From a virus: 29,146 nt of DNA. Shown here piece after piece: positions 668 through 20,900 of this stretch. The notes below the pieces were generated by a model. It worked only from the letters and a program-made list of their open reading frames with translations. It was not told the origin of the DNA and did not search any database. How positions within the stretch are numbered: position 1 is the first letter of the stretch; each line of letters starts with the position of its first letter. Position numbers and translations under genes: made by a program. The stretch covers positions 1-29,146 of the IMG/VR virus record IMGVR_UViG_3300009165_000025, one strand, 5' to 3'.

Positions 668-813
668 TGGCTATTAAAAAATCTTTGAGTGGTAAAGAAA
701 TTATTGAGTCTCATCCAAAGAGTACTCGACAAGGATGTGGAGCAAATACAAAGTATGCCTCTACATCTCGTAATAAGGCTCGTAAAAAGTATAGAGGTCA
801 AGGTAAAGGATGA
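667..813 (+). CDS. Very small basic protein, 48 aa, function unknown
   Basis: This open frame encodes 48 residues, starting M-A-I-K-K-S-L-S-G-K-E and ending R-K-K-Y-R-G-Q-G-K-G. It is strongly basic (about a quarter Lys/Arg), rich in Ser/Thr/Gly, with one Cys, and has no hydrophobic core. It may be disordered and bind nucleic acid or an acidic partner, but that is inference from charge only. The start is well supported by AGGAG seven bases upstream and by the one-base TAATG overlap with the previous gene. Its stop overlaps the start of the 218-aa gene as ATGA. It is too short for most automatic gene finders. I believe similar short basic proteins occur in other marine T4-like phages at this place, but cannot verify it here. 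Confidence 0.7.
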   Translation: MAIKKSLSGKEIIESHPKSTRQGCGANTKYASTSRNKARKKYRGQGKG

Positions 814-1466: not shown

Positions 1467-1501
1467 GTTCTCTGCATAAAATTGAGTTGAAACAGCATTC
1501 G

Positions 1502-1828
1502 ATGGGCAAACATCTGCTTCTAGAGGTGTACAATGTTGATTTTGAAGCGATTAATGATGTGGAATCGCTTCGAAATGCAATGATCAGAGGTATCAATCGT
1601 GCCAAAATGACCATTTTAAACACATTTTCGCACGATTTTATTCCACAGGGATGTACAGTCGTGATTGCTCTTGCAGAAAGTCATGTTTCTTGCCATACTT
1701 GGCCAGAAAACGGTTGTTTAGCAGTAGATGTATATACATGCGGTGAAGGAAATCCACGTTTAATAGCACTCGAAATTTTAAAATACCTTAACTCAGACTC
1801 TTATTCGTTGCGTGAAGTAGATCGTTAA
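1502..1828 (+). CDS. speD: S-adenosylmethionine decarboxylase proenzyme
   Basis: SpeD decarboxylates S-adenosylmethionine to the aminopropyl donor used for spermidine synthesis. The proenzyme cuts itself to make a pyruvoyl group. The signature A-E-S-H-V-S-C-H-T-W-P-E is present. The new pyruvoyl residue would be the Ser coded at 1679-1681 (Ser60 from this start), with His five and Cys twenty residues later. That matches the Ser63/His68/Cys83 spacing of the Thermotoga maritima class 1B enzyme. The opening M-G-K-H-L-L-L-E-V-Y is also typical, and the length (108 aa) fits a small class 1B proenzyme. I chose the ATG at 1502 because family members begin close to the G-x-H-L motif. A TTG at 1487 would add five residues, and neither start has a strong ribosome binding site. 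It is a known auxiliary metabolic gene of cyanophages. Confidence 0.93.
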   Translation: MGKHLLLEVYNVDFEAINDVESLRNAMIRGINRAKMTILNTFSHDFIPQGCTVVIALAESHVSCHTWPENGCLAVDVYTCGEGNPRLIALEILKYLNSDSYSLREVDR

Positions 1829-1829
1829 A

Positions 1830-1837
1830 TATAAATG
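1830..1837 (+). promoter_or_regulatory. Late-promoter-like element (TATAAATG)
   Basis: TATAAATG lies just after the speD stop and differs by one base from the T4-type late -10 element TATAAATA. It is 60 bases before the ATG of the 79-aa gene and would produce a leader containing the hairpin at 1866-1890. The position is convincing; the mismatch lowers confidence. Confidence 0.5.
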
Positions 1838-1865
1838 TGCGATAGAAACCGCACGTTAATAAAAG

Positions 1866-1890
1866 TTCTGTTTTATTCATTAAAACAGGA
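1866..1890 (+). promoter_or_regulatory. Leader hairpin overlapping the ribosome binding site
   Basis: CTGTTTTA (1868-1875) pairs perfectly with TAAAACAG (1881-1888) around a five-base loop. A T-G wobble and a T-A pair can extend it to 1866/1890. The right arm contains most of the AGGAG at 1887-1891 that should serve the ATG at 1898. It could mask the ribosome binding site or protect the 5' end of the mRNA. It has no following T run, so it is not a typical intrinsic terminator. Confidence 0.55.
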
Positions 1891-1897
1891 GTTAAAA

Positions 1898-2137
1898 ATG
1901 TCAAATTCATCAACAGATAGAGATTCAAATTATATGAGAGAAATGTGGGGAACTACAAAATTGATCACTGATTATGAATTATCACCACAAAAAAGAGTTA
2001 TTCAGGAAGTAATGATGGATAATGCACCGAAACATAATCTATCTAAGCAATCAGAATTACATGAAAAAATTCGTAATGATGATGATTATGATGATTGGTC
2101 ATATGGAACTGAACCATCTTATGGATCTTCTTGGTAA
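1898..2137 (+). CDS. Hypothetical acidic protein, 79 aa
   Basis: The frame is open from 1835, but the ATG at 1898 is chosen because AGGAG sits seven bases upstream and the earlier ATG overlaps the late-promoter-like element. The product has 79 residues. The N-terminus is Ser/Asp-rich, the middle is probably helical (E-L-S-P-Q-K-R-V-I-Q-E-V-M-M-D), and the tail is very acidic and aromatic (N-D-D-D-Y-D-D-W-S-Y-G-T-E-P-S-Y-G-S-S-W). It has no Cys, no signal peptide and no membrane segment. I do not recognise the family. It stands alone between a late-promoter-like element (1830) and the late promoter of gene 25 (2143), which suggests late expression. A small virion or assembly protein is possible but unproven. 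Confidence 0.75.
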   Translation: MSNSSTDRDSNYMREMWGTTKLITDYELSPQKRVIQEVMMDNAPKHNLSKQSELHEKIRNDDDYDDWSYGTEPSYGSSW

Positions 2138-2142
2138 TAGGG

Positions 2143-2150
2143 TATAAATA
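2143..2150 (+). promoter_or_regulatory. T4-type late promoter upstream of gene 25
   Basis: A perfect TATAAATA lies in the gap between the 79-aa gene and gene 25, with its last base 21 bases before the gene 25 ATG. This is the -10 element recognised by the gp55-type late sigma factor in T4-like phages. It probably drives the 25-6-giant gene run. Confidence 0.85.
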
Positions 2151-2171
2151 AATCAAGATAACTTTTGTTTA

Positions 2172-2573
2172 ATGTCAATCACAAGGATATCAAGATCATT
2201 TAAGGATATTAGTTTATCTTTCGATCCACATCCAGTGACCAAGGATCTCCCAATTCTCAAAAATGAGAGTGCAATTCGTAGATCAGTAAGAAATCTAGTT
2301 GAGACTATTCCAACTGAAAGATTTTTTAACTCTCTTCTTGGTTCTGATGTGAGATCAAGTCTTTTTGAATTTGTTGATTATGGTACGGCATCTGTAATTG
2401 AGGATCAAATTTTATCAACTCTTTCAAATTTTGAACCAAGAATTAATAATGTGAGAGTTGAAGTTGATCCTCAACCGGATATTAACACATTTAATGTAAA
2501 TATTATATTTGATATCGTTGGACAAGAGTTTCCGACACAAGAATTCTCATTCATACTAGAGGCAACAAGATAA
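2172..2573 (+). CDS. 25: Baseplate wedge subunit gp25
   Basis: A 133-residue protein of the gp25/GpW family, close in length to T4 gp25 (132 aa). In contractile tails, gp25 sits at the inner baseplate and connects the wedges to the first sheath ring. The N-terminus carries R-S-F-K-D-I-S-L-S-F-D-P-H-P-V-T-K-D-L (residues 8-26). It is followed by I-R-R-S-V-R-N-L-V-E-T-I-P-T-E-R-F-F, the typical family helix with the conserved E-R-F, and a C-terminal beta region ending F-S-F-I-L-E. Gene 6 follows after a one-base gap. The ATG is 21 bases after the late promoter and has no strong Shine-Dalgarno sequence. Confidence 0.93.
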   Translation: MSITRISRSFKDISLSFDPHPVTKDLPILKNESAIRRSVRNLVETIPTERFFNSLLGSDVRSSLFEFVDYGTASVIEDQILSTLSNFEPRINNVRVEVDPQPDINTFNVNIIFDIVGQEFPTQEFSFILEATR

Positions 2574-2574
2574 A

Positions 2575-4500
2575 ATGCCTTTCACTAAGTTTACTAATTT
2601 AGATTTTGATCAGATAAAGACATCCATTAAGGATTATCTTCGTGCAAATTCCAATTTTACGGATTTTGACTTCGAAGGGTCCAATTTTTCTGTATTAATC
2701 GATACTTTAGCATATAACACTTATATTACAGCATTCAATTCCAATATGATTGTTAATGAATCCTTTTTGGATTCGGCAACATTAAGAGAGAATGTTGTTT
2801 CCTTAGCAAGAAATATTGGTTACGTACCCCGCTCAAGAACCGCTGCAAGAGCAAGTATATCCTTTCAAGTACCAACGACTACAACTAGTCAAACACTTAC
2901 GCTACAAGCGGGTCTAGTGTGTGTAGGAGCATCAGATAATACTTCATATACATTCTCAATTCCCGAAAATGTTACAACAACTGTATCTGGAGGTTTTGCA
3001 ACCTTTGGATCTACAGAATTTCCAATTGAAGTTTATCAAGGAACTTTTCTAACCAAGCAATTTGTTGTCGATGGATCATTAGATCAAAGATTTATTCTTG
3101 AAAATTCATTTATTGATTCATCTACAATAGTTTCTTATGTTAAAGGTATCAATGATAGTGGATTAGGGAGACAATATGAGCAAATTGATAATATTTTAAA
3201 TGTCAATTCCACATCAGAAACTTATTTAATTCAAGAAGTTCAAGATGAAAAGTACGAACTTCTTTTTGGTGATGGAATTTTTGGTAGAAAATTAGAAAAT
3301 GGAACTATTATAACTGTTACTTACATCATTACTGATGGAAAAGAAGGTAATGGTGCATCAAGATTCTCATTTCAGGGAACTTTTAAAGATTCTAACAATA
3401 ATATTTCTATACCATCAGGTTCAATTACTGTTAATACAGTTTCTTCAGCAAATAATGGTGGAGAAATTGAATCTATTTCTTCAGTAAAATATTTTGCTCC
3501 TCGTCTTTATTCTGCACAATATAGAGCAGTTACTTCGAGAGATTATGAGGCAATTATTCAACAAATATATCCAAATACCGAATCAGTATCAGTTGTTGGT
3601 GGAGAAGAACTTGATCCACCACAATTTGGAAAAGTTTTAGTTAGTATAAAACCGAAAAATGGAGATTTTGTTTCCGACTTCGATAAGCAAAATATCTTAT
3701 TGAAATTGAAAAATTATTCTTTAAGTGGAATTAAGCAAGAAATTATAGATCTTAAAGTTCTTTATGTAGAAATAGATTCTTCAATCTATTATAATTCTGC
3801 ACAAATTACAAATGTAGATAATTTAAAGACAACTATTACAACATCACTATCAGATTATGCTTCATCAGTTGATCTGAATAAATTTGGTGGAAGATTTAAA
3901 TACAGTAAAATATTACAAGTTATTGATAAAGTTGATACTGCGATTACATCAAACATTACCAAAATTAAAATTAGAAGGAATTTAAAGGCACTTCTAAATC
4001 AATTTGCTCAATATGAACTATGCTTTGGTAATAAATTTCATATTAATTCAAATGGATATAATATAAAAAGTTCTGGATTTTTTCTATCATCAACTACAGA
4101 TCCAGTATATTTGACTGATGTTCCAAATAAAGATTTAAATGGAAATTTAGATGGAAGTGGTAAGGGTGTCGTATCAATAGTTAAAAAACAAGCAGATGGA
4201 AGTTATCGCGTTATTGTAAAATCGGCAGGAACTGTTGATTATACTAAAGGTGAAATTATTCTCACCACAATTAATATTACATCCACAATAAAATCTGATA
4301 ATATTATTGAAATTCAAGCATTTCCAGAATCTAACGATGTAGTTGGATTGAAGGATTTGTATTTAAATTTTGATCTTTCGAACAGTAAGATAAATATGTT
4401 AAGAGACGTGATTGCTTCAGGAGAAGATATCTCTGGAGTTACATTTGCAAGAGACTACTATACATCAAGTTATTCAAATGGAGATCTGGAGAGGAAATAA
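2575..4500 (+). CDS. 6: Baseplate wedge subunit gp6 (baseplate J-like)
   Basis: A 641-residue protein, close to T4 gp6 (660 aa). gp6 dimers form the wedge ring that holds the T4 baseplate together; its core belongs to the baseplate J-like family. The N-terminus (F-D-Q-I-K-T-S-I-K-D-Y-L-R-A near 11-24) and the early helix with N-E-S-F-L-D-S-A-T-L-R-E-N-V are typical of viral gp6. The J-like signature L-L-F-G-D-G-I-F-G followed by G-x-x-I-T-V-T-Y and G-x-x-G-N-G is at about residues 228-260. The R-D-Y-E-A-I-I-Q segment is at about 321. The region after about residue 470 is probably a wedge-contact domain. Its end contains GGAGAGGA, which acts as the ribosome binding site of the next gene. Confidence 0.93.
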   Translation: MPFTKFTNLDFDQIKTSIKDYLRANSNFTDFDFEGSNFSVLIDTLAYNTYITAFNSNMIVNESFLDSATLRENVVSLARNIGYVPRSRTAARASISFQVPTTTTSQTLTLQAGLVCVGASDNTSYTFSIPENVTTTVSGGFATFGSTEFPIEVYQGTFLTKQFVVDGSLDQRFILENSFIDSSTIVSYVKGINDSGLGRQYEQIDNILNVNSTSETYLIQEVQDEKYELLFGDGIFGRKLENGTIITVTYIITDGKEGNGASRFSFQGTFKDSNNNISIPSGSITVNTVSSANNGGEIESISSVKYFAPRLYSAQYRAVTSRDYEAIIQQIYPNTESVSVVGGEELDPPQFGKVLVSIKPKNGDFVSDFDKQNILLKLKNYSLSGIKQEIIDLKVLYVEIDSSIYYNSAQITNVDNLKTTITTSLSDYASSVDLNKFGGRFKYSKILQVIDKVDTAITSNITKIKIRRNLKALLNQFAQYELCFGNKFHINSNGYNIKSSGFFLSSTTDPVYLTDVPNKDLNGNLDGSGKGVVSIVKKQADGSYRVIVKSAGTVDYTKGEIILTTINITSTIKSDNIIEIQAFPESNDVVGLKDLYLNFDLSNSKINMLRDVIASGEDISGVTFARDYYTSSYSNGDLERK

Positions 4501-4503
4501 AAT

Positions 4504-7500
4504 ATGATTGAAACTGGATTTAATAGTAGAGTTAAAATTCAACAGATAATTGATAATCAGATTCCTGAATTTTTACTTTCAGAATCACCAAAAGCTTCCG
4601 AATTCTTAAAGCAATATTATATTTCTCAAGAATATCAGGGAGGACCTGTTGATCTTGCAGATAATTTAGATCAATATTTAAAATTAGATAATTTAACACC
4701 AGAAGTTGTACAGGGAGATACTTTTCTTACTAATAGTATTACTGATAATTCGGATATCATTTCTGTAGATTCTACAAAAGGATTTCCTAATCAGTATGGA
4801 CTATTAAAAATTGATAATGAAATTATCACTTATACTGGATCTACTTCAAGTACATTTACTGGTTGTGTTAGAGGATTTAGTGGAATTACAACATATCATA
4901 AAGAAAATTCTCCAGAAGAATTAGAATTTTCAATTTCATCTAGTGCATCTCATTTAGATAATTCTAGAGTAATTAATTTAAGTTCTTTGTTTTTACAAGA
5001 ATTTTATAAAAAAATTAAATTTACTTTAACTCCAGGATTAGAAAATGTAGCATTTGTTCCTAATCTAGATGTTAGTAATTTTATAAAGGAAGCAAGAAGT
5101 TTCTACCAATCAAAAGGAACCGAGGAATCTTTTAGAATTCTTTTCAATATTCTATATGGAGAATCTCCAAAAGTTATTGATCTCGAAACTCTACTACTTA
5201 AACCATCAGATGCTCAATTCAGAAGAAGGGAAGTATCTATTGTAGAAAGAATTTCTGGAGATCCATTAAAATTACTTGGACAAACTATTCGAAGATTAGA
5301 AAATCCAAAAACTCAAGCAGCAGTATCAGAAATTGAAATTCTCACTAGAAGTGGAAAAACTTATTATAAGTTAAGTGCTTTTGTTGGTTATAATGATGAT
5401 GAATTAACTGAAGGTGAATTCTTTATTACTGGTAATACAAAATCACTCGAAACTGTTTCTATTGGATCATCTATTATTTCTGTAGATTCGACTATAGGAT
5501 TTTCAGAATCAGGAACACTTATATCTGGATCAAATTCAATTAAATATTCTGATAAAACTATTAATCAATTTTTAGGTTGTTCTAATATTACTGCAACTAT
5601 AAACCCCACAGATAATATTAGATCTAACGATATAGTTTATGGGTATGAAGATGGAGATACTACCAAAAAAGTTGAACTCAGAATTACTGGAGTTTTATCA
5701 GAATTCATTCCAACTTCGGACATTTATCTTGCTGAAGAAAAAGAAACTATCACTGTTAAAAATCTCGGTGAAGTAATTAATAATCCAGAAACTAATAAAA
5801 CATATAAAGAGATATTTGCAAATTCTTGGATTTACAATACTAGTTCAAGATATCAAATTGGACAAATTTCCGGATCTACATTTACATTATTGAGTAAGAT
5901 AGATAAATCAAGTTTAAAAATTGATGATAATGTAGATATTTTAGTCAGAGGAACACAAAATGTAGTTGTATCTAATGCACTAGTCGTTAATATCAATAAT
6001 TCAAATAATCAGATTACTTTAAATAATATTGGACCCTTTTCTCCATCAGTATCTTTAGATTATGATATTAGAAGAAAAATTAAAAAAGCATCTAGTTCTG
6101 GAGCAAGTTTAGAATTTGGGAATGCTAAATTAATTTCTGATATTCAAAATTTATATAATGATGAGCATTTTGGATATGTTGCATCAAATTCATTACCGAA
6201 TTATAATATAACAAAAAATCTTAATGATGCCTCAATATCTCAAGCAAGTCCTCCAAGACTACAAGATTTTGATGCAAATACTCAAAAATATTCTATTATT
6301 TCATTCTCTACAAATGTACCATTTATAACTGGTGACGCTGTAGTTTATGAATCGGAATTTGAACCAATGCCTGGTTTAGTTTCTGGAGAGACTTATTATA
6401 TTCAAGTATTAACTCCTCCTAATCAAATAAGACTTTATACATCAAGATCTTTTGTGGGAGGTTTAGATTATATTCAATTTGATTCCTTACAGACTTTAGG
6501 TTATCATAAATTTATTTTAGAAGAGCATAAAACTAAAGTTATTAGTCCACAAAAAAATCTTCGAAAATTTCCATTAAATCATAACTTTGAAGATGGGTTT
6601 GGAGAAGAAACCCAACCTGGACCTATTGGATTGCTAATAAATGGAGTAGAAATAGTTAGTCCAAAATCTGATGATAAGATCTATTATGGACCATTAGATT
6701 CTATCAAAGTAGTCAATAGTGGACAAGGTTATGATGTAATTAATCCCCCAAGAGTTGTTGTATCCAATCCACCATCAGGAGGAACTACTGCGAAAGTCAA
6801 TGTTGCTGTCAGAGGATCTGTAAAAAATGTTCTAGTAGATCCGCAAGATTTTGATTTAGATACTGTTGTTTCTGCTACTATTTCTGGAGGAAATGGAACT
6901 GGTGCAATTTTAAATCCAATTGTATCAAGAAGATTTAGAGAAGTTGAATTTGATGCTAGAACACTAATTAATGGTGGTGGATTAGATATTACCGATGAAA
7001 CAATTACATTTAGAAGTATTCATAATTTTATAAATGGACAACCAATTATCTACAGTCAAAATGGTAATGAACCTTTAGGAATTGGAACTTTTGGACCACC
7101 AGATTTAATTAATAATGAAGTACAGAATAAAACGTTAGTAAGTGGATCAATTTATTATCCAAAAGTCGTTAATCCAAGTACAGTTAAATTATATCCAACA
7201 TTTAATGATTATACTGTTGGTGTTAACACTATTGGAATAACAACAGAAAATAATAATGGAATTCATAAGTTTAGAACTATAGAGAAGAATACCTTAAGAT
7301 CTATAAAAGTTTTAAATCCTGGTAGTGGATATGAAAATAGAAATTTATATATTTCAACTGCAGGAGTATCGACAGCATTCAATACAATAACATTCAATAA
7401 TCATAATTTTAAAAGTGGAGATTTGGTAGATTACTCTACAACAGGAACTGCAATTTCTGGATTATCTACTAGTAATCAATATTATGTTCTTAAAATTGAT

Positions 7501-10500
7501 AATGATACATTCAAATTATGTGATGTTGGAATTGGTGCGTCAATTACTTCAAACTATGAAAGAGAAAATTATATAAAATTCTATTCTGTAGGTTCGGGAT
7601 ATCATATATTCAAATATCCAAATATCAATTTAACTGTTAATGTATCTTTTGGGAGCACAATTGTAGGAATAATTACCGCAATTCCTGTGGTTACTGGAGA
7701 AATTGTAGATGCATATCTTTATGAACCTGGAACAAATTATGGATCGGACATTTTAAATTTACAAAAAACTCCGACAATTTCATTTAAAACTGGAAAAAAT
7801 GCTCAATTAAGTGCAATAATTAAAAATGGAGTTATTAGTCAGGTTGATATTTTAACTGGTGGATTGGAATATAGTTCAACTCCAGAATTAATTGTTAGTG
7901 GAACTGGTACTGGAGCAATTTTAAGACCAATCATAGAAAATGAGAAAATCACCAAAGTAATAGTCATTAATGGTGGTACAAATTATAATGCTGAAAATAC
8001 TAAAATAAAAATTGAACCAGCAGGAAAAAATGCTCTTATAGTAAGTTCAATAAGATCCTTAACAGTCAATAAGCAATCTAAATTTGGTGATGAAATTTTA
8101 GAAGATACTTTAAATAATTTGGAGTATGCATTTGTTGGATATCCAGTTAATATTGGAAATTCTAATTTTGGTGACTCTGGGTTATTACACTCACCAATTA
8201 TTGGATGGGCATATGATGGAAATCCAATTTATGGTCCATACGGATATTCCAATCCAGAAAATATAACTTCTTCATTAAAAGTTTTAAGCACTGGATATAC
8301 TTTAAATACTTCAAATATTATAAATCGCCCTTCTCCATTTGGTCCTGGATTCTTTATTGAAGATTATAGTTTTGATGCTTCTGGAGATTTAGATATTCAC
8401 AATGGTAGATTTTGTAAAACTCCAGAATTTCCAAATGGGATATATGCTTATTTTGTCGGAGTCTCTACAGATATTAGTACAAATACTCTAGTAGCAAATT
8501 ATCCATATTTTATTGGTGATTCATACAGATCACCTCTTATTGAAGAAAATTTCACATTAAATCAAACATTTGATTTTAATAATTCATCTTTATCTAGAAA
8601 TACTTTCCCATATAAAGTAAATGATCCTTATGCTGATAATGATTTCTTAATTGAGTCTAATGAAATCGTAAATCAAGTATCTTTGATTGAATCAGTCTCG
8701 AAAGGATCAGTAGAATCATTTACAATTTTGGAATCTGGAGATGATTACAAAATTGGTGATGTTGCAGTGTTTGATAATGATGGAACTAATGGCGGTGGAT
8801 TAAGTGCAGTAGTTTCAAGTATTTTAGGAAAACAGATTAATAAAATCGAAAGTCAAATAGATGTTTACAACAATTCGATTTTAACTTGGAAAGATCAAAA
8901 TACTGTATTAGTTTCTTATCAACCTTATCACGAATTACTTGATGGAGATAATATTGTAATTTCTGGATTAACAACTTCTATTTCCAAATTATTTGGAAAT
9001 CATAAAGTAGGATTGACTTCAGAAAGAATTGTTTTATTCAAAGATGTACTTTCGAATGTAGTTCCAGGAAAGGTTGAAGATATTTTTGTTTCAAATATTC
9101 CACCATCAGTATCTGTTGGGAGTTCAATAACTATAGAAAGTGAAATCTTGTCAGTATTGAATATTTTTGATAGTAATTCAATTCTCAGAGTTCGTAGATC
9201 TGATATTGGTGCTGCTCATACCTCAACTACTATAGTCAATATTTTACCAAATAAATTTACCATTCCAATTAAAACAAGTTATTTCGATTCAACTCTTAAT
9301 GATCTTGTTTATTTTAATCCAAATCAATCTGTTGGAGTTGGGACAACTGCAGGAATTGGAATCAATTTAACTTATACTGTTGGGGAATATACTCAACAAA
9401 TTTCAGTTACAACTCAAAATATTTACTTACCGAATCATCCATTCAAAACTGGTCAGCAAGTAACTTTTAATAAAAAATCAGGAACTTCTGCATTAGTAGT
9501 ATCTAATACCTCAGGAGGTTCTAGTTTTAATTTACCGTTTGTAACTAATAGTGAAACTGTCTATGTAATTAATAAATCAAAAGATTTTATCGGATTAACA
9601 ACTTCCGTAGGATTAACTACTAACACTGGAGGTCTATTTTTCTTCAGTAATGGTTCAAATAATTATGAGTATTCTTTGGGTAGTAATTATGATCAAGTTA
9701 TTGGGACTGTAGAGAAAATAAAAACAACAGTTTCTGTTTCAACTTCCCATAATATGCAAAATGGGGATATTGTGAAACTGGAAGTAAAACCAAATATTTC
9801 TGTTGGAGTAGGTTCTTCAACATCAGTAAGAGTAAAATATGACCAAAATTCACAAAGATTATTAATTAATCCAGTAGGATTTAATTCTTCAAATATTAAT
9901 ACTACTACTGATACAATAACTATCAATTCTCACCATTTTGAGACTGGTGATAAAGTTCAATACAATTCTACAGATTTAATTGCATCTGGATTAACAACTG
10001 GTGGATATTTTGTATATAAAATTGATGATAATAAGATTCAACTGACAGAAACTTTCAAGGACTTGAATCAATCTATTCCAAAAGTTGTTGATATTATTGG
10101 TGTGGGAGGAACTAGTCATATTATTAGTCTTATTAATCCAAAACTTGACGTAGTTAAAAATTCGACTTTAAAATTTGATCTTTCGGATCCATCTTTAATT
10201 AATTATAAATTGAAATTCTATTATGATCAGAATTTTGATAATGAATTTATTTCTACAGGATTAGATTCTCAATTTAATATATCTGGAGTTGGAACAGTTG
10301 GTGTAGGAACTGTATCGACGTATTCACTCAGATACTCCGATGGATTCCCAACTAATCTTTATTACTCTTTCGAAAAAAATGGAGTTATTATTAATCCAGA
10401 TACTGAAGTAAGAAATTATTCAGAAATTTTCTTTATCGATAGTGTTTATAGTGGATCTCACGTAATTTCAGGTGTTGCTGCAACGACTTTTAATATTTCC

Positions 10501-13500
10501 TTATATAAAATTCCAGAACAATTATCATATAATCAATCACAATGTGATTTATTGAAATACTCTACCACATCAGAAACTGCAATTGGTGGAGTTAATAATT
10601 TACAAATCTTATTTGGAGGATATGCCTACAAAAAAATTCCAAAGTTTGTAGATATTTCTTCCGAAAATGGATTTAACGCCAATATATTATCAATTTCTAC
10701 TAGTATTGGTAGAATTAATAAAGTTAGAGTTTTGGATCAGGGATTTGAGTATTCTTCCGATAAAACTCTCAGACCAGAAGCATATATTTCTCCAATATTA
10801 TCAATAATAAATTCAAGCACTATTGATAATGTAAATGTATTGGATGGTGGTAAAAATTATTCATCCGCACCAAATTTACTTATATTCAATCCAGATATTT
10901 TACAAGTAGTTGATTCTGAATCACTTACCTGCAAAGTATATTCAAATTCAATTTCGGAAGTTGTTATTAACGTAAAATCTTATGGATTGAGTTCAATAAA
11001 TCATAAAATTATTGCTATTGATAATAGTAATGGAGTTGGAGTTAATTCCGTAACTTCTTCAGTATCTGGTATTGTTACATGTATTCTTTCAACTCCAATT
11101 ACTGGATTTTCAACCAGTGTTTTTGAAGTTGGTGATGAAATATTCGTCGAAGGAATTCAAAAAGAAGGAACAAACGGTACTGGATTTAATTCTTCAGATT
11201 ATAATTACCAGTTCTTTACAGTTACTTCATATCAAAATACCAATCCTGCAAGACTTGAATTTAATATTGCAGGATTAACTACTAATCCAGGATTTGCAAA
11301 AACTAATCAAACTGCATTTGCATCAATTATCAATAAGAAAAATTATCCCATATTTGAAGTTGTTCAAAGTTTTTCTACTTTTATAATTGGCGAAAAATTA
11401 CTTTCGAATACAGGAACTGGATTTTTTGAAAGAGATTTGACCATAAAAGAATCTAGACAAGAATATATTAAAGTTGATGGATTCTATACATTATCTAAAA
11501 ATGAGGTTATTAAAGGGAAAAATTCTGGAGTATTAGCAACTATAGCAGATATTGTTCCAAATACTGGAAAATTTCAAGTAGATTATTCAATTAGACAGGA
11601 TTATGGTTGGTTAACTGATAGTGGAAAAATTAATGAAAGTTATCAGGTAACAAGTGATAATGATTATTATCAAAATCTTTCATATTCTGTTAGAAGTTCA
11701 ATTCAATTTAATGATTTAGTAGATCCAGTAAATCGTTTATTGCATACTGCAGGTTTAAAGAATTTTGCAGATGTTCAAATTGAATCTAGATCCGGTATTG
11801 CTTCATATACACAAACTACAAATGACTTAATTGTTCTAGATGTAGTTGAAGAAAAGAGAGTTGATACTATTAATAATTTCGATTTAACCATCGATATCGA
11901 TACTTATGAAAATAAATCAAAATATCTTAAATTAAAAAATAAAAAACTGACAGATTATATTAGTTGTATTAGTAACAGAGTTTTAATTGTTGATGACGTA
12001 AGTAATAGATTTTCCAATAAAGAAAGTTCAAAAGATCCATATGTGGATATTTCTACTCTTGAAGATTCTTATTACAAATATCTTGTTCAGATAATTGATC
12101 CCAATAGTTCTTCCCGTCAGTTAACTGAATTGGTAGTTCTTTCTAATGATGATGATGTCTTTACTTTAGAAAAGGGAACACTAACAAATACAGAAATTGA
12201 ATTAGGGGATTTGATTGGAAGTATCGATACTTTTGATTCAAAATCTTTAAGATTTTTACCTAATGACATATTCGATACTGATTATGATATTAAAGTTCTT
12301 CAAAGTAACTTTAATTCAAATATTTCAGGTATTAATACTCAATCGGTAGGATTTGTTAACTTAACCGGATCAAATAGTGTTGTTGGTGTTGGATCTACAG
12401 CAACTATTATTTCAATCGAAAAGGATACAGTAGAATCATTATTCGTAAATATACAAATTCTGAACACTGTTACAAATAGGATGAATTATGTCGAATTATT
12501 CTTAGATCATGATGGAAATGATACTTACCTTGCAGAGTATTATTTTGATAGTAGTTCTGGTATCACCACTCAATTTATTGGTTCATTTAATCCAGTTATT
12601 AATGGATCAAAACTATCCTTAGAATATGCAAATAATGATATAAATTCAATTCTTGTTAGATCTAAAATAGTTGGATTTGGGACAACTTCAATTGGAATTG
12701 GTACTTATAGATTTACATCTATAAATCAACCAGATGGTTCTGAAAGAAGTGCTTATTTAACATCCAATTACAATATTTCATCTACAGTATCTGATATTAT
12801 TGGTATTAATACTGATAATTCAACAAGTGTCAAGTCACTTGTTTATGTCTCTTATGGGCAAACTAGTGCATTACATCAAGTGATGATGATTCAAGATAAA
12901 TTTGATGTATATACTTTACAATATCCATTTCTTTCTATCGGGAGTACATCTGGAATTGGAACTTTTGGAGGAGAAATAGTAGGATCTAATGCAATACTGA
13001 GATTCTACCCAGATTCTTCAATTTCTGCGAATTTACAAATTCAAAGTTATAATGAAGTATTATATACCGAAAATGATTATAATAATGAACCAGAAATCTT
13101 GAATTTTGGGACAGCAACTGAAGAAATTATCCTTTCAGCTTTTGATAGTATTAATGGGGATAGATCAAATAAACTCGATTTTGATTTAAACTATGGTGGA
13201 ATTCCAATCTATAAAAAAATCTTTAATCCATCAGATACTTCAGTTTTGGATACATCAACTGGAATATTTACTATTAAAGATCATTTCTTCAGTAATGCAG
13301 AACAATTAGTATATACACCAAAATCATCTTTTATTGGTGTAGGTGAGACTAGTGTTGGAATTGGAGCAACATTAAATTCTTCAGGAATTGTTACTAATCG
13401 TTTACCATCTGATGTGTACGCAATTAGTATAAATTCAGATCAATTCCAATTATCAACTAGAAAAGATTATGCTTTAGCGGGCATTTATGTTACATTTACT

Positions 13501-16377
13501 TCTTTTGGTCAAGGAAATGTTCATGAATTGGAGATGAGTAAGAAACTCGAAAAATCAATTATTTCTATTGATGGTGTAGTACAAAAACCAATAACATTTA
13601 CACCTATTTCACATAAACTAGAAAATAATGGTGGACAAATCAGCGTTGGTACAACTTATTTTGCATTAAGTGGTATTTCTACATTAAAACCAAAGGATTT
13701 GATTAAAATTGATCATGAGTATATGAATATAGTTTCTGTTGGATTAGGAACAACAAGTATTGGTCCAATTTCTGGAATAGGATCTGTACCAATTGTTCAA
13801 GTTGAAAGAGGATTTGTTGGATCTTCAGTAACAACTCACACTGATTCTGCAGAAGTTAGAGTTTATAGAGGTTCATTTAATATTGTGGGAAGTAAAATTT
13901 ATTTTACAGCACCACCTAAAGGTAGTGGTAGAGTGAAGAGAGATTTTTCAAATCTTCCTTTCCCAACTTCAAATTTTGCAGGTAGAGTTTATTTAAGAAA
14001 TGATTATTCTACTAATGTAATATACGATGATGTAGCAGATCAGTTTACTGGTATTGGACAAACATATACATTAAAAGTACAAGGAATTAATACTACAGGT
14101 ATTCAAACTGGTAGTGGAGTTTTATTCATTAATGATATTTTCCAAACACCTACTACTACAAATAATTCAGGAAACAATTATGAATTTTTTGGATCTGTTG
14201 GTATTTCTAGTGTAGTATTTACTGGTATTACATCCAGCAATGGAAGCATCATTAAAAATGATTTTGATGTTAATCAAAATCAACTCCCAAGAGGTGGAAT
14301 TATTGTTTCCTTAGGATCTACACCAGGATTGGGTTTTGCACCTCTTGTAGGATCTTCTGTGACCTCTGTAGTGAGTTCTGGATCTATTGTTTCTGTTGGT
14401 TTAGGAACAACTGATATTCTTGGTTCTGGTTATAATGGAATTGTTTCTATCGGTGTTACTGAAATTGGTCATATTGGATATGGAGCAACCATTACTGCAA
14501 CGGTAGGTGCTGGCGGGACTCTTACTTTCAATGTTGTATATGGAGGTACTGGATATACAAATCCAACTATCCAAATTTCATCACCATCATATGAAAATCT
14601 TCCTGTTATTGGAGTTTCTAGAAGAGGTATTGGTAATACTACAGATACTGGATCAAATTTATTAATAACTTTAGATGTTGGTGCAAGTTCAACAACTGGA
14701 ATTGGTTCTACATTATTTGAAGTTTCATCATTCAGTATTTCTAGACCAGGATATGGATTCCAGATTGGCGATGTATTCAAACCTGTAGGTCTAGTAGTAG
14801 ATAAAAATCTTTCCAATCCAGTAAGTGAATTTGAATTGACGGTTCTTGATACATTTACTGATTCATTCTCATCCTGGCAGTTTGGTGAACTGGATTATAT
14901 CGATTCAATTAAAAATTTACAAGATGGATCTAGAATTAGATTCCCATTATATTACAATGGACAATTATTGAGTTTTGAAAAAGATTTATCAAATCCAAGT
15001 TCTGTAGATATTGATTTGAATTCAGTTCTTCTCATTTTTATTAATGGAGTAATTCAGGAACCTGGATCAGCATATCAGTTCGAAGGTGGTACATCATTTA
15101 CATTCTCAAATGCACCTATAAATGAAGATGAAATTTCAATTTTCTTCTATAGAGGAACTAGAAACGTAGATAGTGCTAGTGTTAATGTTAATGAATCTGT
15201 AAAAATTGGAGATCTTGTTCAGGTATTTAAAAATGATTTGTATACAGAAACTATCACTCAAGATATAAGAAGAATTGATAATATACCAGGATCAGATAAA
15301 TTAGAAACTAATGTATATACTGGATTAGGAATTGATGAAATTAATTACAGACCATTTAGTTGGACAAAGCAAAAAGTGGATAGTATAATTAATGGAGACT
15401 ATGTTTATAAATCTAGAGATTCTATTGAACCACAAATATACCCGACTGCAAAAATAATTAAAAATATTTCAAATATATCAAATGAAATATTTGTAGATAA
15501 TGCAAAATTCTTTAATTATGAAGAAGATAATTATTCAACTACTATTAATAATTTTGAAGCTTTGATTGTTCAAGGAACAGATTCAGTATCTGCAGGTATG
15601 ACTGCTGTAGTTTCTGTTGGAGGAACAATACAATCTCTTGTAATTACTAATAGTGGATCTGGATATATTGGAACAACATTATCTGTTAAAATTTCCTCCC
15701 CTCAGCAAATTGGAGTTGGAATTGGTACAATAGCATCTGCATCAGTTTCAATTGTAAACGGGCAAATTGCATATCCAATTACTATTACAAATTCCGGATT
15801 TGGATATAGTCGAAATAATCCACCTCAAGTTATTGTAGATAGTCCAAATTTAAATTATGAATTAGTTACAAATATTACTGGTGTTGAGGGTTTCTCTGGA
15901 ATTATTACTGGTATAACTACGACCACTGGAATATACGGCAATCCTTTAGCGTTAAAGTTTTATATTAATACTCCATCACTCGTAGGTCTAGCAACTGGAT
16001 ATCCGGTTTATATTTTCGATACCTTAGTTGGTAATACAGTAACCTCTATTGATAGTGGAGAATCTTCTATAGTTGGTATTGGTACAACTTGTTTAGATAA
16101 CATTTATTATATTCATAATTTAATTCCAGATGGATCTAATGCTGAGATTATTACAAATATAAGTTCAACAACTAATATTTCTGGAATAACAACTAGTGGA
16201 TCTTTACTAGGTCGATTCTCTTGGGGAAGATTTTATAATTTAAGTAGATCTGCAAATCCAATTTCTATTGGAGTTACCGGATTGACGGTTGATTCTGGAT
16301 TATCAACATTTGCAAATATTCAAAGAAAGGGATATGGATTGAGAGATACTGGTGCAATAAGAAAGATTGTAGGATAG
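4504..16377 (+). CDS. Giant baseplate-associated structural protein in the gene 7 position (YHYH domain, beta repeats)
   Basis: One uninterrupted frame of 3957 residues, about four times T4 gp7 (1032 aa), between gene 6 and gene 8 where T4 has gene 7. The N-terminus has a helical region with F-Y-Q-S-K-G-T-E-E-S-F-R (about 200-211) that looks wedge-like. The long remainder is beta-rich and Gly/Ser/Thr/Asn-rich. About a dozen G-x-G-Y or related turns occur between about residues 730 and 3770. At least five H-x-F-x-x-G-D-x-V-x-Y units occur, and several units join an I-D-x-E segment to R-G and a His. A YHYH-type segment is at about 1225-1320 (I-I-G-W-A-Y-D-G-N-P-I-Y-G-P-Y-G-Y). Ribosome binding is by GAGAGGA inside the end of gene 6. 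I infer a gp7-like wedge protein enlarged by surface repeats; an adhesive role is possible. Virion presence is very likely, the exact equivalence to gp7 less so. Confidence 0.8.
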   Translation: MIETGFNSRVKIQQIIDNQIPEFLLSESPKASEFLKQYYISQEYQGGPVDLADNLDQYLKLDNLTPEVVQGDTFLTNSITDNSDIISVDSTKGFPNQYGLLKIDNEIITYTGSTSSTFTGCVRGFSGITTYHKENSPEELEFSISSSASHLDNSRVINLSSLFLQEFYKKIKFTLTPGLENVAFVPNLDVSNFIKEARSFYQSKGTEESFRILFNILYGESPKVIDLETLLLKPSDAQFRRREVSIVERISGDPLKLLGQTIRRLENPKTQAAVSEIEILTRSGKTYYKLSAFVGYNDDELTEGEFFITGNTKSLETVSIGSSIISVDSTIGFSESGTLISGSNSIKYSDKTINQFLGCSNITATINPTDNIRSNDIVYGYEDGDTTKKVELRITGVLSEFIPTSDIYLAEEKETITVKNLGEVINNPETNKTYKEIFANSWIYNTSSRYQIGQISGSTFTLLSKIDKSSLKIDDNVDILVRGTQNVVVSNALVVNINNSNNQITLNNIGPFSPSVSLDYDIRRKIKKASSSGASLEFGNAKLISDIQNLYNDEHFGYVASNSLPNYNITKNLNDASISQASPPRLQDFDANTQKYSIISFSTNVPFITGDAVVYESEFEPMPGLVSGETYYIQVLTPPNQIRLYTSRSFVGGLDYIQFDSLQTLGYHKFILEEHKTKVISPQKNLRKFPLNHNFEDGFGEETQPGPIGLLINGVEIVSPKSDDKIYYGPLDSIKVVNSGQGYDVINPPRVVVSNPPSGGTTAKVNVAVRGSVKNVLVDPQDFDLDTVVSATISGGNGTGAILNPIVSRRFREVEFDARTLINGGGLDITDETITFRSIHNFINGQPIIYSQNGNEPLGIGTFGPPDLINNEVQNKTLVSGSIYYPKVVNPSTVKLYPTFNDYTVGVNTIGITTENNNGIHKFRTIEKNTLRSIKVLNPGSGYENRNLYISTAGVSTAFNTITFNNHNFKSGDLVDYSTTGTAISGLSTSNQYYVLKIDNDTFKLCDVGIGASITSNYERENYIKFYSVGSGYHIFKYPNINLTVNVSFGSTIVGIITAIPVVTGEIVDAYLYEPGTNYGSDILNLQKTPTISFKTGKNAQLSAIIKNGVISQVDILTGGLEYSSTPELIVSGTGTGAILRPIIENEKITKVIVINGGTNYNAENTKIKIEPAGKNALIVSSIRSLTVNKQSKFGDEILEDTLNNLEYAFVGYPVNIGNSNFGDSGLLHSPIIGWAYDGNPIYGPYGYSNPENITSSLKVLSTGYTLNTSNIINRPSPFGPGFFIEDYSFDASGDLDIHNGRFCKTPEFPNGIYAYFVGVSTDISTNTLVANYPYFIGDSYRSPLIEENFTLNQTFDFNNSSLSRNTFPYKVNDPYADNDFLIESNEIVNQVSLIESVSKGSVESFTILESGDDYKIGDVAVFDNDGTNGGGLSAVVSSILGKQINKIESQIDVYNNSILTWKDQNTVLVSYQPYHELLDGDNIVISGLTTSISKLFGNHKVGLTSERIVLFKDVLSNVVPGKVEDIFVSNIPPSVSVGSSITIESEILSVLNIFDSNSILRVRRSDIGAAHTSTTIVNILPNKFTIPIKTSYFDSTLNDLVYFNPNQSVGVGTTAGIGINLTYTVGEYTQQISVTTQNIYLPNHPFKTGQQVTFNKKSGTSALVVSNTSGGSSFNLPFVTNSETVYVINKSKDFIGLTTSVGLTTNTGGLFFFSNGSNNYEYSLGSNYDQVIGTVEKIKTTVSVSTSHNMQNGDIVKLEVKPNISVGVGSSTSVRVKYDQNSQRLLINPVGFNSSNINTTTDTITINSHHFETGDKVQYNSTDLIASGLTTGGYFVYKIDDNKIQLTETFKDLNQSIPKVVDIIGVGGTSHIISLINPKLDVVKNSTLKFDLSDPSLINYKLKFYYDQNFDNEFISTGLDSQFNISGVGTVGVGTVSTYSLRYSDGFPTNLYYSFEKNGVIINPDTEVRNYSEIFFIDSVYSGSHVISGVAATTFNISLYKIPEQLSYNQSQCDLLKYSTTSETAIGGVNNLQILFGGYAYKKIPKFVDISSENGFNANILSISTSIGRINKVRVLDQGFEYSSDKTLRPEAYISPILSIINSSTIDNVNVLDGGKNYSSAPNLLIFNPDILQVVDSESLTCKVYSNSISEVVINVKSYGLSSINHKIIAIDNSNGVGVNSVTSSVSGIVTCILSTPITGFSTSVFEVGDEIFVEGIQKEGTNGTGFNSSDYNYQFFTVTSYQNTNPARLEFNIAGLTTNPGFAKTNQTAFASIINKKNYPIFEVVQSFSTFIIGEKLLSNTGTGFFERDLTIKESRQEYIKVDGFYTLSKNEVIKGKNSGVLATIADIVPNTGKFQVDYSIRQDYGWLTDSGKINESYQVTSDNDYYQNLSYSVRSSIQFNDLVDPVNRLLHTAGLKNFADVQIESRSGIASYTQTTNDLIVLDVVEEKRVDTINNFDLTIDIDTYENKSKYLKLKNKKLTDYISCISNRVLIVDDVSNRFSNKESSKDPYVDISTLEDSYYKYLVQIIDPNSSSRQLTELVVLSNDDDVFTLEKGTLTNTEIELGDLIGSIDTFDSKSLRFLPNDIFDTDYDIKVLQSNFNSNISGINTQSVGFVNLTGSNSVVGVGSTATIISIEKDTVESLFVNIQILNTVTNRMNYVELFLDHDGNDTYLAEYYFDSSSGITTQFIGSFNPVINGSKLSLEYANNDINSILVRSKIVGFGTTSIGIGTYRFTSINQPDGSERSAYLTSNYNISSTVSDIIGINTDNSTSVKSLVYVSYGQTSALHQVMMIQDKFDVYTLQYPFLSIGSTSGIGTFGGEIVGSNAILRFYPDSSISANLQIQSYNEVLYTENDYNNEPEILNFGTATEEIILSAFDSINGDRSNKLDFDLNYGGIPIYKKIFNPSDTSVLDTSTGIFTIKDHFFSNAEQLVYTPKSSFIGVGETSVGIGATLNSSGIVTNRLPSDVYAISINSDQFQLSTRKDYALAGIYVTFTSFGQGNVHELEMSKKLEKSIISIDGVVQKPITFTPISHKLENNGGQISVGTTYFALSGISTLKPKDLIKIDHEYMNIVSVGLGTTSIGPISGIGSVPIVQVERGFVGSSVTTHTDSAEVRVYRGSFNIVGSKIYFTAPPKGSGRVKRDFSNLPFPTSNFAGRVYLRNDYSTNVIYDDVADQFTGIGQTYTLKVQGINTTGIQTGSGVLFINDIFQTPTTTNNSGNNYEFFGSVGISSVVFTGITSSNGSIIKNDFDVNQNQLPRGGIIVSLGSTPGLGFAPLVGSSVTSVVSSGSIVSVGLGTTDILGSGYNGIVSIGVTEIGHIGYGATITATVGAGGTLTFNVVYGGTGYTNPTIQISSPSYENLPVIGVSRRGIGNTTDTGSNLLITLDVGASSTTGIGSTLFEVSSFSISRPGYGFQIGDVFKPVGLVVDKNLSNPVSEFELTVLDTFTDSFSSWQFGELDYIDSIKNLQDGSRIRFPLYYNGQLLSFEKDLSNPSSVDIDLNSVLLIFINGVIQEPGSAYQFEGGTSFTFSNAPINEDEISIFFYRGTRNVDSASVNVNESVKIGDLVQVFKNDLYTETITQDIRRIDNIPGSDKLETNVYTGLGIDEINYRPFSWTKQKVDSIINGDYVYKSRDSIEPQIYPTAKIIKNISNISNEIFVDNAKFFNYEEDNYSTTINNFEALIVQGTDSVSAGMTAVVSVGGTIQSLVITNSGSGYIGTTLSVKISSPQQIGVGIGTIASASVSIVNGQIAYPITITNSGFGYSRNNPPQVIVDSPNLNYELVTNITGVEGFSGIITGITTTTGIYGNPLALKFYINTPSLVGLATGYPVYIFDTLVGNTVTSIDSGESSIVGIGTTCLDNIYYIHNLIPDGSNAEIITNISSTTNISGITTSGSLLGRFSWGRFYNLSRSANPISIGVTGLTVDSGLSTFANIQRKGYGLRDTGAIRKIVG
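6697..8010 (+). repeat. Cluster of G-x-G-Y beta repeats coded in the giant gene
   Basis: At least five units of one degenerate protein repeat occur here. They have a pattern such as I-x-V-x-x-x-G-x-x-Y-x-x-x-P-x-V-x-V followed by a Gly-rich A-x-L segment. They are near residues 733 (N-S-G-Q-G-Y), 934 (N-P-G-S-G-Y), 1071 (E-P-G-T-N-Y), 1113 (T-G-G-L-E-Y) and 1152 (N-G-G-T-N-Y). Two H-x-F type units lie between them. The repeats are visible at protein level only; no long exact DNA repeat is evident. Confidence 0.7.
8176..8463 (+). other. YHYH-type domain within the giant structural protein
   Basis: Residues about 1225-1320 include S-P-I-I-G-W-A-Y-D-G-N-P-I-Y-G-P-Y-G-Y and later F-C-K-T-P-E-F-P-N-G-I-Y-A-Y-F-V-G. 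This matches my knowledge of the YHYH domain found in marine phage structural proteins and some bacterial secreted proteins. The role is unknown. It breaks up the surrounding beta repeats and is the most recognisable globular module in the protein. Confidence 0.75.
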
Positions 16378-17959: not shown

Positions 17960-20900
17960 ATGCCACAAAAAACTAATCTTAATATAAGTCCATATTATGA
18001 TGATTTTAACATTGACAAGAATTTTTATAAAGTTCTTTTTAAACCAGGATACCCTGTACAAGCAAGAGAATTAACTACATTACAATCGATTCTACAAAAC
18101 CAAATAGAATCTTTTGGTAGTCATATATTTAAAGAAGGATCCATGGTAATTCCAGGATCTATTACTTATGATGGAGATTATTTTTCAGTTAAAATTAATC
18201 AAGATCATTTAGGTATTGATGTTTCATTATATCTCTCCAAATTAGTAGGAAAAAGAGTAAAAGGTCAGAATACCGGAATTGTTGCGGTTGTTACTAAGTA
18301 TAGTATTCCTCCAAATGATAATGTTGAGGAAATAACCCTATATGTTAAATATTTGGATTCTGGGGAAGATTTAGAAATATCTCAATTTCAAGATGGAGAA
18401 CTTTTAATTGTTCAAGAGAACTTAACTTACGGAAATACAACTATTAATTCTGGAGATACTGTATGCACAGTATTTGATACTAATGCTACTGCTGTTGGAT
18501 CTGCGGTTGGTTTAAGTAAAGGTGTATATTTCATTAGAGGAACCTTTGTAGATGTTCCATCATCATTAATAGTTCTAGATGCATATTCAAATACTACATC
18601 ATATAGAGTAGGTTTAAATATTTTTGAAGAAATTATTACATCTGATGATGATTCGAGTTTAACTGATAATGCTAGAGGATTTTCTAATTACGCTGCACCT
18701 GGTGCAGACAGATTTAAAATTAGTACAATTCTAGCTAAAAAATCTTTAAATGATTTTGATGACAAAAATTTCGTAGAACTTATCAGAATTGATAATGGAG
18801 AAATTAAAAAACTTCAGGATAAATCTGTATATTCTACAATTAAAGATTATTTTGCAAAAAGAACTTTTGAAGAATCTGGAAATTATTCGGTAGATAAGTT
18901 TGAACTCGATGTTCTAAATTCTTTAAATGATGGAATTTCTAATGAAGGAATTTATTTAGAAAATCAAAAAACTGAACAAGGAAATACTCCTTCAGATAAT
19001 TTGATGTGTGTTAAAATATCTCCAGGCAGAGCATATGTAAGAGGGTTTGATATTGGTTCTCAAAGTTTAACAATTATTGACGTAGAAAAACCAAGAGATA
19101 CTGAAACGATAAGTACATCACTTGTTCCCTTTGAAATGGGGAATCTTCTTAGAGTCAATAACGTAGTTGGAACTCCATTTGTTGGTATTAATACAAGTGG
19201 AAATGTTGTAGAATTTTATAATCAAAGAAGAAATTCTACTTCAGGTGGAACAGGAACTTTAATTGGTAAGGGTAGAATATATTCATTTAGTGTTACTGAT
19301 GCAGCATATACCGGAGCAACAACTGAATGGGATTTATACTTATTTGATGTTCAGACATATACTGTTTTAACTTTAAATGAAGCATTAAATGCTACCCAAT
19401 GTCCAGCAACTTCATATATTAGAGGGTTGAGTAGTGGTGCCTCTGGATATGTTGTAACTGCAGCAAATTCCACATCCTTAACTTTAAGTCAAACTTCTGG
19501 TCAATTTATTGTCGGAGAACAAATATTAATTAATGAGAGTTTATTAAATTCAAGATCTATCAATAGTTTTTTCTCATATGGGACTGAAGATATAAAATCA
19601 GTTTATCAAGATTCAACAGCACTCACTCCACAACTCAAAACTGATTTTGTTGCCGATAGTGTAATTTACAGAAAAATTGCTCAAGGGTTTAGTGTTGCAG
19701 ATAGGATAACAATAACATCGGCAGGTATTGCTACTTGCGCCGGAAAATCATTCTCAAGAATTAAAACCAATTCAATTATAAGATATCAAAAATCTGGATT
19801 TGTAACTGAAACTTTCAATAGAGTTGTCTCAATTTCGGGTGATGGAAATCAAATGGTTCTTGGAACTGTTCCAAATGTATCTGGAATATGTGATGGAGCA
19901 CTACCTCTCTCAACTGAAAATGCAACATTTAGTATTGGATATCCTGAAATTAAAAATCAGGATAAAGCAACGCTTTATACTCCTTTAAATGCTAAAAATA
20001 TATCATCTGTAGATTTATCTGGAGCAAATCTTTTAGTTACAACTCAGGTTAGAGAACTAACAACGGATTCTAATGGTGGATTAACTGTCAATGTTAGTAA
20101 TACTGGAATTACTAGTGCATTTTTTGAGGCATTTGACTCTGAAAGATATTCAATTTTTTATTCAGATTCCTCTATAGAAGATTTAACTTCTGATCAAGTT
20201 GTAATAAATGGAAATGGTACAAATATTACATTTACTGGATTAAAAACAAGTCAAACTTCTAACGTAACATTAAATGCAACATTACGAAAAAATATAGTAC
20301 AGAATAAATCTAAAGTTTTTGTTAGAAGTGAAAAATTAGTCGTTACTAAAACAAACACTGGTTTTTCCACATCAATTAGTGGACTTACAACAAGTCAATA
20401 TTATGGATTAAGAGTAGAAGATCCAGAAATTTCATTAAATTTACCCGATGTAGTTGAAGTTCTTGCAGTTTACGAATCTTTAAATAATTCACAACCAATT
20501 TTAGATAAATTAACTTTTGTTTCTGGATTAAATTTAGACACAAATTCCATTCTGGGTGAAAGGATTATTGGAGCAAAGAGTGGTTCAATTGCTCAATTAG
20601 TTACCCGAACATCTTCTACAGAAATAGAAATAGTATACTTAAATTCTAGAAAATTTGAATCGGGGGAAACTGTAACATTTGAAGAATCTAAAATTATTTC
20701 AAATATTCAGGTCATTACTTTAGGTAGTTACTTAGATATTAGCAAAAGATTTAATTTAGATAAGGGGCAAAAAGATCAATATTATGATTACTCTAAAATT
20801 GTTAGATCTTCAGAATCTCCTTCACCTTCCAAACAATTATTAATAATCTTTAATTATTATGATATTCCTACAAATGATCTTGGGGATATTATTACAGTAA

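Follow-up and report, generated by a model that had tools for sequence, protein, structure and literature searches.

The window, by which we mean the whole 29,146-base stretch of viral DNA that was analysed, is probably a fragment of a larger genome. Its genes follow each other in the order gp25 - gp6 - giant - gp8 - VrlC-type - 559 aa - gp13 - gp14, the 559-aa gene being one without assigned function (Table 1). T4's own order 6-7-8 was checked, and the giant gene occupies the place of gene 7, between gp6 and gp8 and downstream of gp25, as the preliminary description had proposed. That description had also spoken of a single 11.9-kb frame of 3957 residues that fills more than 40 % of the window, and this is accurate: the coordinates are exact, the frame opens with ATG and is free of stops, and the gene takes up 11,874 of the 29,146 bases (40.7%). 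Complete open reading frames of this type were seen 35 times, the window's included, and the 34 distinct ones are 3583-4530 aa long; the window giant is close to the short end of this range of aligned complete giants. A contig that is 99.7% identical to the window (L004) differs from it, in the covered part of the giant, by 21 synonymous and 13 non-synonymous codons. Judged by these codon differences, the gene is under constraint. The same pattern, together with the 35 complete frames, argues that the frame is not a product of chance or of a frameshift. The heptamer ATAAATA, which forms the core of the T4 late-promoter sequence TATAAATA, is present seven times in the window, always on the + strand (positions 1459, 2144, 4390, 16379, 17855, 24080 and 25402), and is thus rarer than expected (25.6 by shuffling, both strands). 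Three copies stand 24-28 bases upstream of ORF starts, at 1487, 2172 (gp25) and 16403 (gp8), and the TATAAATA ahead of gp8 starts immediately past the stop codon of the giant.

Table 1. Positions in the window of the giant gene, its parts and the genes around it
Feature	Coordinates	Strand	Basis
gp25 wedge protein	2172..2573	+	phrog_261, phrog_43 (annotated baseplate wedge subunit); placed as gp25 in P-SSM2
gp6 wedge protein, 641 aa	2575..4500	+	phrog_219 E 9e-199; placed as gp6 in P-SSM2
Giant gp7-type baseplate wedge protein (by sequence)	4504..16377	+	3957 aa, ATG start, no internal stop
Core part A, residues 1-330: helical start, inserted beta-barrel, KG-motif helices, domain-V-like beta region	4504..5493	+	profile, AF2
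Beta-barrel inserted in part A, residues 72-158	4717..4977	+	AF2 secondary structure, VIA, domain positions
gp7 signature FYQSKGTEESFRILFNILYG, residues 200-219	5101..5160	+	Y201, K204, G205 invariant in 90 sequences
Region aligned to T4 gp7 domain V, residues 239-309	5218..5430	+	hhalign, window 193-309 = T4 727-823
First arm, between parts A and B, residues 331-2359; GxGY repeats and YHYH	5494..11580	+	
YHYH domain, residues 1229-1325	8188..8478	+	PF14240 88.9 bits vs cut-off 25; conservation in 136 sequences
Core part B, residues 2360-2470; stretch 2394-2428 (YSVRSSIQFNDLVDPVNRLLHTAGLKNFADVQIES) = T4 864-898	11581..11913	+	profiles, tblastn
Second arm, C-terminal extension, residues 2471-3957	11914..16374	+	
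Length hot spot among giants, residues 3305-3403	14416..14712	+	alignment of 36 giants
gp8 wedge protein, 517 aa	16403..17956	+	phrog_438 E 2e-165; PF09215 over cut-off
VrlC-type protein, 2360 aa	17960..25042	+	blastp to VrlC relatives; PF16075

The giant belongs to a known and annotated family, and giant gp7s are already present in GenBank and PHROGs. PHROG_2885 ("baseplate wedge subunit", 4179 positions) matches it in two stretches (E=0, 3994.8 bits), the better of which aligns residues 2-3298 with profile positions 2-3325 of 4179. By tblastn the first 1000 residues match 462 phage records, which by first word are Synechococcus (372), Cyanophage (61), Prochlorococcus (24) and Marine (5); identity is 38-53% among the 60 matches listed of these 462 records. 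The last 957 residues match 99 phage records. A 68-residue piece with the KG motif of core part A finds 394, including Methylophilales (4) and Pseudomonas (2), and core part B finds 200, including Caulobacter (2), Pseudomonas (2), Ochrobactrum (1) and Pseudoalteromonas (1). Judged by these relatives, the source phage would be a cyanobacterial T4-like phage of the family Kyanoviridae. Among the known giants are P-SSM2 gp7 (PSSM2_111, 5195 aa), which carries this name in GenBank, P-SSM4 gp7 (7312 aa), S-TIM4 ORF_101 (6603 aa), S-SRM01 gp7 (3895 aa) and S-PM2p081 (3048 aa), which lies between gp6 and gp8; tblastn adds further giant gp7s in S-T4, S-CAM7 and ACG-2014f. The excerpts searched in the S-TIM4 paper do not name ORF_101. 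The P-SSM2 and S-SRM01 giants are like the window in gene order and in having both core parts, whereas cyanophage giant gp7s differ from the window's in length and arm content. In the S-SKS1 (HQ633071.1 / NC_020851.1) gp7 region, 127908-140282, the C-terminal match overlaps two annotated genes and the N-terminal match overlaps no annotated gene, which suggests a frameshift or a split annotation. A C-terminal motif of the form RxxYGLRxxG (window 16324-16374) is found in the window giant and in S-SRM01 gp7 and, in a looser version, in P-SSM2 gp7; it is absent at the ends of the eight other gp7s compared. What this analysis adds is the two-part core, the location of the extra mass in the protein and the correction of the published absence of gp7.

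On the sequence comparisons, the assignment of the giant as a true gp7-type wedge protein and homologue of T4 gp7 holds. When a profile built from 90 N-terminal regions was run against 177,635 PDB sequences, the two best matches were T4-type gp7 (2.2e-5 and 6.3e-5). The third match, a Rifin at 3.4e-4, is an unrelated protein and was judged to be chance, indicating that E-values not far from those of the gp7 matches can arise by chance. With a profile of 37 compact relatives, T4-type gp7 again gave the two best matches (2.5e-7 and 1.2e-5), and a weaker match placed part B at residues 862-920 of one T4-type gp7. In hhalign, where each E-value stands for one single comparison, part A matched five T4-type gp7s at 95.2% (E 2.8e-8). 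The Cr30-type profile matched five Straboviridae gp7s at 97.4% (E 9.4e-12), Cr30 7-200 corresponding to T4 644-829, an alignment that takes in the larger part of the Pfam helical domain (643-689) and a good part of domain V (766-861 in T4 gp7). Part B aligned at T4 864-898 with 68% (E 4.7e-5), or 52.6% (1.4e-4) with pf16 as master; with a profile from giants alone the E-value was 0.022, and the match covers about 35 residues. Part B, an HPxG-type segment, corresponds to the VHPVGF segment of T4 gp7.

Controls place these similarities specifically at gp7. Among 14 T4 proteins, gp7 was best for part A (4e-6, next 0.14), for the Cr30-type profile (9e-9, next 0.15) and for part B (5e-4, next 0.01, a factor of about 20); for part A and the Cr30 type its lead over the other T4 proteins amounts to four to seven orders of magnitude. 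When the giant was cut into 22 sliding windows of 330 residues, the two with part A were best (6e-8 and 7e-8) and the two with part B came next (0.063 and 0.065), at the matching T4 place. In a ranking of 35 windows of 111 residues the KG piece led (3e-7), followed by the domain V piece (0.013) and the part B piece (0.026). The gp7 signature reads FYSTKGIEASYKFLFKVLY at 734 of T4 gp7 and FYQSKGTEESFRILFNILYG at 200 of the giant. Narrower tools behave differently. The Straboviridae gp7 families PF21427, PF21428 and PF21456, all three of which T4 gp7 matches, gave no match to the window giant at E <= 1, and we therefore regard it as a homologue and not as a member of these narrow models. PF23786 (Baseplate_wedge) reached 18.9-19.8 bits (E 0.0006-0.0012) on the N-terminal pieces of the window giant, below its cut-off of 27; it matched 75 of the 90 aligned sequences at E <= 0.01, at best with 3.4e-12. 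Direct phmmer of residues 1-1000 against the PDB gave nothing useful. The 1432 records found by tblastn with T4 gp7 included no cyanophage among the 60 matches listed or the ten groups named, 27 smaller groups being unlisted. Tail_P2_I (PF09684) had no match in the window, and kinship with P2 gpI is at most presumed. We take P2 gpI and TssG to be the third chain of the wedge, so that the group of XM1 gp17, P2 gpI and TssG would have the same wedge role as we infer for the giant; XM1 gp17 was not retrieved by the PDB searches with the N-terminal and compact-relative profiles.

A separate T4-type gp7 did not appear in related phages: none of 11 related non-T4 phage records had a PF21427 match over the cut-off, while the positive controls T4 and RB49 score, and in each of 13 phage records one gene holds the main part-A match, with weak extra matches of the barrel region in four. 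The preliminary description had named a lack of structural similarity of any part to gp7, together with a separate gp7 gene elsewhere, as grounds for giving up its proposal. What we find is a protein of gp7 type by sequence profiles, Foldseek ranking and gene order, and no separate gp7 in the related phage records tested, the window itself being probably a fragment. The identity as gp7 is thus supported.

The structure models point to the same protein. AF2 of residues 1-330 (mean pLDDT 69) predicts helices, a beta-barrel at about 72-158, the KG-motif helices and a beta region. A Foldseek search of 350,542 chains ranked chains of 9f4a, 5iv5 and 5hx2, which have 1004-1031 residues and belong to entries listed under gp7 in the PDB profile search, first to third both for this model (E 2.4e-4, 3.0e-4 and 0.028) and for a Cr30-type model (1.0e-5, 1.2e-5 and 5.6e-4), with low TM-scores of 0.14 or less. 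The Cr30-type AF2 model is poor (mean pLDDT 50), and only its Foldseek ranking was used. A Foldseek comparison had been suggested for this protein; with models of modest quality and such TM-scores, the fold ranking leans partly on sequence. The inserted barrel is similar to barrels of phage heads and baseplates (VIA: Z 10.8, rmsd 2.2, 76 residues aligned to 9in6_M; Z 10.5, rmsd 1.9, 76 aligned to 8rk3_b), and F1-ATPase barrels score lower (Z about 7). The VIA list for the window model does not contain gp7, an absence that we do not interpret because the barrel region, 66-162, filled the list. Unlike the window, the pf16 and Cr30 sequences are without the barrel insert. In P-SSM4 gp7 (L176:1-21939) and S-TIM4 gp7 (L175:1-19812), about 500 further residues lie within part A at the place of the barrel.

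The wedge core is in two pieces. Only the N-terminal few hundred residues had been described as wedge-like; part A (residues about 1-310) is indeed N-terminal, but a second conserved piece, part B, lies near residue 2400. By hmmsearch both parts are present in 11 of 11 non-T4 proteins, three of which are in the profiles, and A always comes first. In five T4-type gp7s part A is found at E 5e-7 to 7e-6 and part B at 0.03 to 0.08, in a constant place. Among IMG/VR-derived ORFs, 392 have A, 301 have B and 289 have both. The complete ones among these 289 number 200, of which 180 are distinct, with the window's ORF among them, and every one of the 200 has A ahead of B. Of the 180, 114 are 707-1395 aa long with A-to-B gaps of 256-619, and 66 are 2837-4543 aa long with gaps of 1484-2438. 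These length classes, measured stop to stop, rest on the hits of five queries and not on a systematic survey; that no length falls between 1,500 and 2,500 aa may be an effect of sampling. Named phages fall in the same way. The compact gp7s of pf16 (523 aa), Cr30 (767), Mosig (874), Melnitz-1 (896) and HTVC008M (1016) have A and then B like the window, but with a short gap (214 in pf16, 296 in Mosig, 349 in Melnitz, 488 in HTVC008M, 541 in Cr30) and a short tail, while the gaps of giants are 1497 (S-PM2), 2030 (window), 2031 (S-SRM01), 2121 (P-SSM2), 2615 (S-TIM4) and 2708 (P-SSM4). As far as can be read from the sequences, a giant is a compact gp7 in which a very long insertion separates A from B and to which a long C-terminal extension is added; given a core in two pieces, the arm consists of this insertion and this extension. 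T4 gp7 (1032 aa) shares with the window the position 6-7-8, the KG motif, the helical and domain V regions and B after A. However, its core lies at the C-terminal end (640-1032) with an arm of its own ahead of it, whereas the core of the window giant begins with the first residue, has about 2,030 residues between its two parts and about 1,490 more behind it. We found no description of a split gp7 core in the excerpts of the literature searched. One relative, an ORF of 3151 aa at 4961 of contig L190, matches part B best near residue 2752, which leaves it a tail of only 292 residues, while no other giant has a tail of under 900 residues after part B; this relative has either a different architecture or a second B-like copy.

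The arms carry the beta repeats and the YHYH domain that had been noticed before. A loose GxGY-type pattern has 18 matches in the 3957 aa, scattered through the arm. Such a repeat is also seen near the end of the visible gp14 (28395-29144), which in addition matches phrog_19630 and phrog_701, and in the VrlC-type protein (17960-25042), so that it looks like an element shared by several virion proteins. The YHYH domain scores well over the cut-off, but the match covers only positions 93-187 of the 193 in PF14240, leaving the first half of the domain unrecognised. A PsbY match at 0.0037 (phmmer of the YHYH region against the PDB) was ignored, and nothing useful was found there. An alignment of 36 giants shows where the arms vary. 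Mean pairwise identity per 100 residues is 0.60-0.66 in residues 1-400, 0.36-0.58 in 401-3200, 0.60-0.63 in 3201-3500 and 0.47-0.60 beyond. At the length hot spot about 150 aa are inserted on average, and up to 529, with few insertions elsewhere. The stretches around it (3201-3500) are conserved as much as the core, which speaks against a fast-evolving receptor site; a modular site would account for such length variation within conserved surroundings better than a fast-changing receptor surface would.

Published statements, cited here and below from excerpts of the papers, have denied cyanophages a gp7. Cyano- and pelagimyophages are said to lack T4 Gp7 and to have VrlC in its stead (PMC7029224), and gp7 has been counted among the non-cyanophage core genes (PMC3037559). 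With P-SSM2 gp7 so named in GenBank, the published record, as far as these excerpts go, contradicts itself. If the statements were right, the giant would be unrelated to gp7 and merely sit at its place, gp7 having been lost and functionally replaced by VrlC. We consider this very improbable in view of the profile matches to gp7 with their controls and of the related phage records, in which neither PF21427 over cut-off nor the part-A profile detects a separate gp7. The window's VrlC-type protein matches S-PM2p084, PSSM4_084 and PSSM2_113 by blastp, as well as parts of HTVC008M and S-SRM01 VrlC. HTVC008M has both a 1016-aa gp7-type gene and VrlC, and the two genes also occur together in Mosig, P-SSM4, S-SRM01 and the window. 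VrlC is thus a separate gene beside a gp7-type gene and does not replace it, which corrects the published statement that gp7 is missing and VrlC-replaced.

The function of the arms is a different matter. Taken together, the data are best explained by a cyanophage gp7 with a split core, whose arms are wedge-borne peripheral or host-contact parts, and we regard this as likely. Parts A and B would fold together and form, with two gp6 chains, the core of one of six wedges, as T4 gp7 does. Each wedge would then carry two long, built-in, beta-rich arms projecting from the baseplate rim, which would do the work of peripheral parts and either take part in host-surface contact or hold parts that do; the length-variable segment 3305-3403 would be the most likely outer, host-adapted stretch. 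The main rival also accepts gp7 by descent, but takes the arms for a scaffold that stands in for peripheral components of T4, for example gp10 and gp11, and holds separate fibres without touching the host. We think this quite conceivable, though short of probable. T4 gp7 contacts gp8, gp9 and gp10 (PMC3004832), the loops of XM1 gp17 hold tail spikes and not the host (PMC10457771), the large VrlC-type gene and the 559-aa gene follow the giant, and the sequence around the length hot spot is conserved, all of which a scaffold would accommodate. However, the arms are far larger than T4 gp7 (1032 aa) or XM1 gp17 (242 aa), beyond the need of a holder, and the single length hot spot has the look of a variable contact region. 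An improbable alternative would make the arm mainly an enzyme device, with YHYH as a metal-dependent hydrolase carried on the tail to breach the cell wall. YHYH domains are predicted to be zinc hydrolases with three His and one Asp (PMC7824862), and in 136 sequences Asp1238 and Asp1297 are invariant (136/136) and His1229 is kept in 130. Yet unlike other PF14240 proteins the window matches the second half of the profile only, a single His is kept above 90% within residues 1195-1365, which is not a triad, and the domain makes up only about 100 of 3957 residues.

Returning to the arms as peripheral or host-contact parts of the wedge, host contact by the giant is plausible by analogy. XM1 gp17, a gp7 orthologue of 242 aa, binds tail spikes by an internal loop (80-106) and its C-terminus (201-242) (PMC10457771). 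Its attachment sites are comparable to the sites of the cyanophage arms by position only, in a protein of 242 residues and without a sequence match here. In addition, S-PM2d081 (3048 aa), described by the authors as hypothetical and exceptionally large, acquired a mutation early on when the phage was grown with Synechococcus in a chemostat (PMC9910659). In all, 33 early non-synonymous changes, this one among them, affect 18 ORFs; 8 of these ORFs are predicted virion genes. Most of the early S-PM2d changes are also in the deposited sequence (PMC9910659). S-PM2p081 corresponds to S-PM2d081 by number and length. The spike-binding sites of XM1 gp17 and the mutation of S-PM2d081 in co-culture favour a role in adsorption. 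The further proposal that such an arm stands in place of a separate fibre finds no support, because the giant is followed by genes for a VrlC-type protein of 2360 aa and a protein of 559 aa, and further annotated wedge and connector genes adjoin the 7312-aa gp7 of P-SSM4.

A more far-reaching reading, which we offer tentatively and consider rather unlikely as a whole, is that T4 and cyanophages grew host-interaction arms independently at different sites of one core, the T4 arm ahead of the core and the cyanophage arms inside and behind it, at XM1-like spike sites. In cyanophages the wedge would on this view be an adsorption device made in one piece, with a receptor-contact module near 3305-3403. 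If true, one of the main targets of coevolution would be the giant and not a classical fibre. Little is known of the adsorption proteins of marine cyanophages, and candidate host-contact segments can now be named, residues 331-2359 and 2471-3957 with the hot spot 3305-3403. S-PM2d081, mutated during host co-culture, would be identified as gp7, and giants that are often deposited as 'hypothetical' or 'structural protein' would gain a defined place as the third chain of the wedge.
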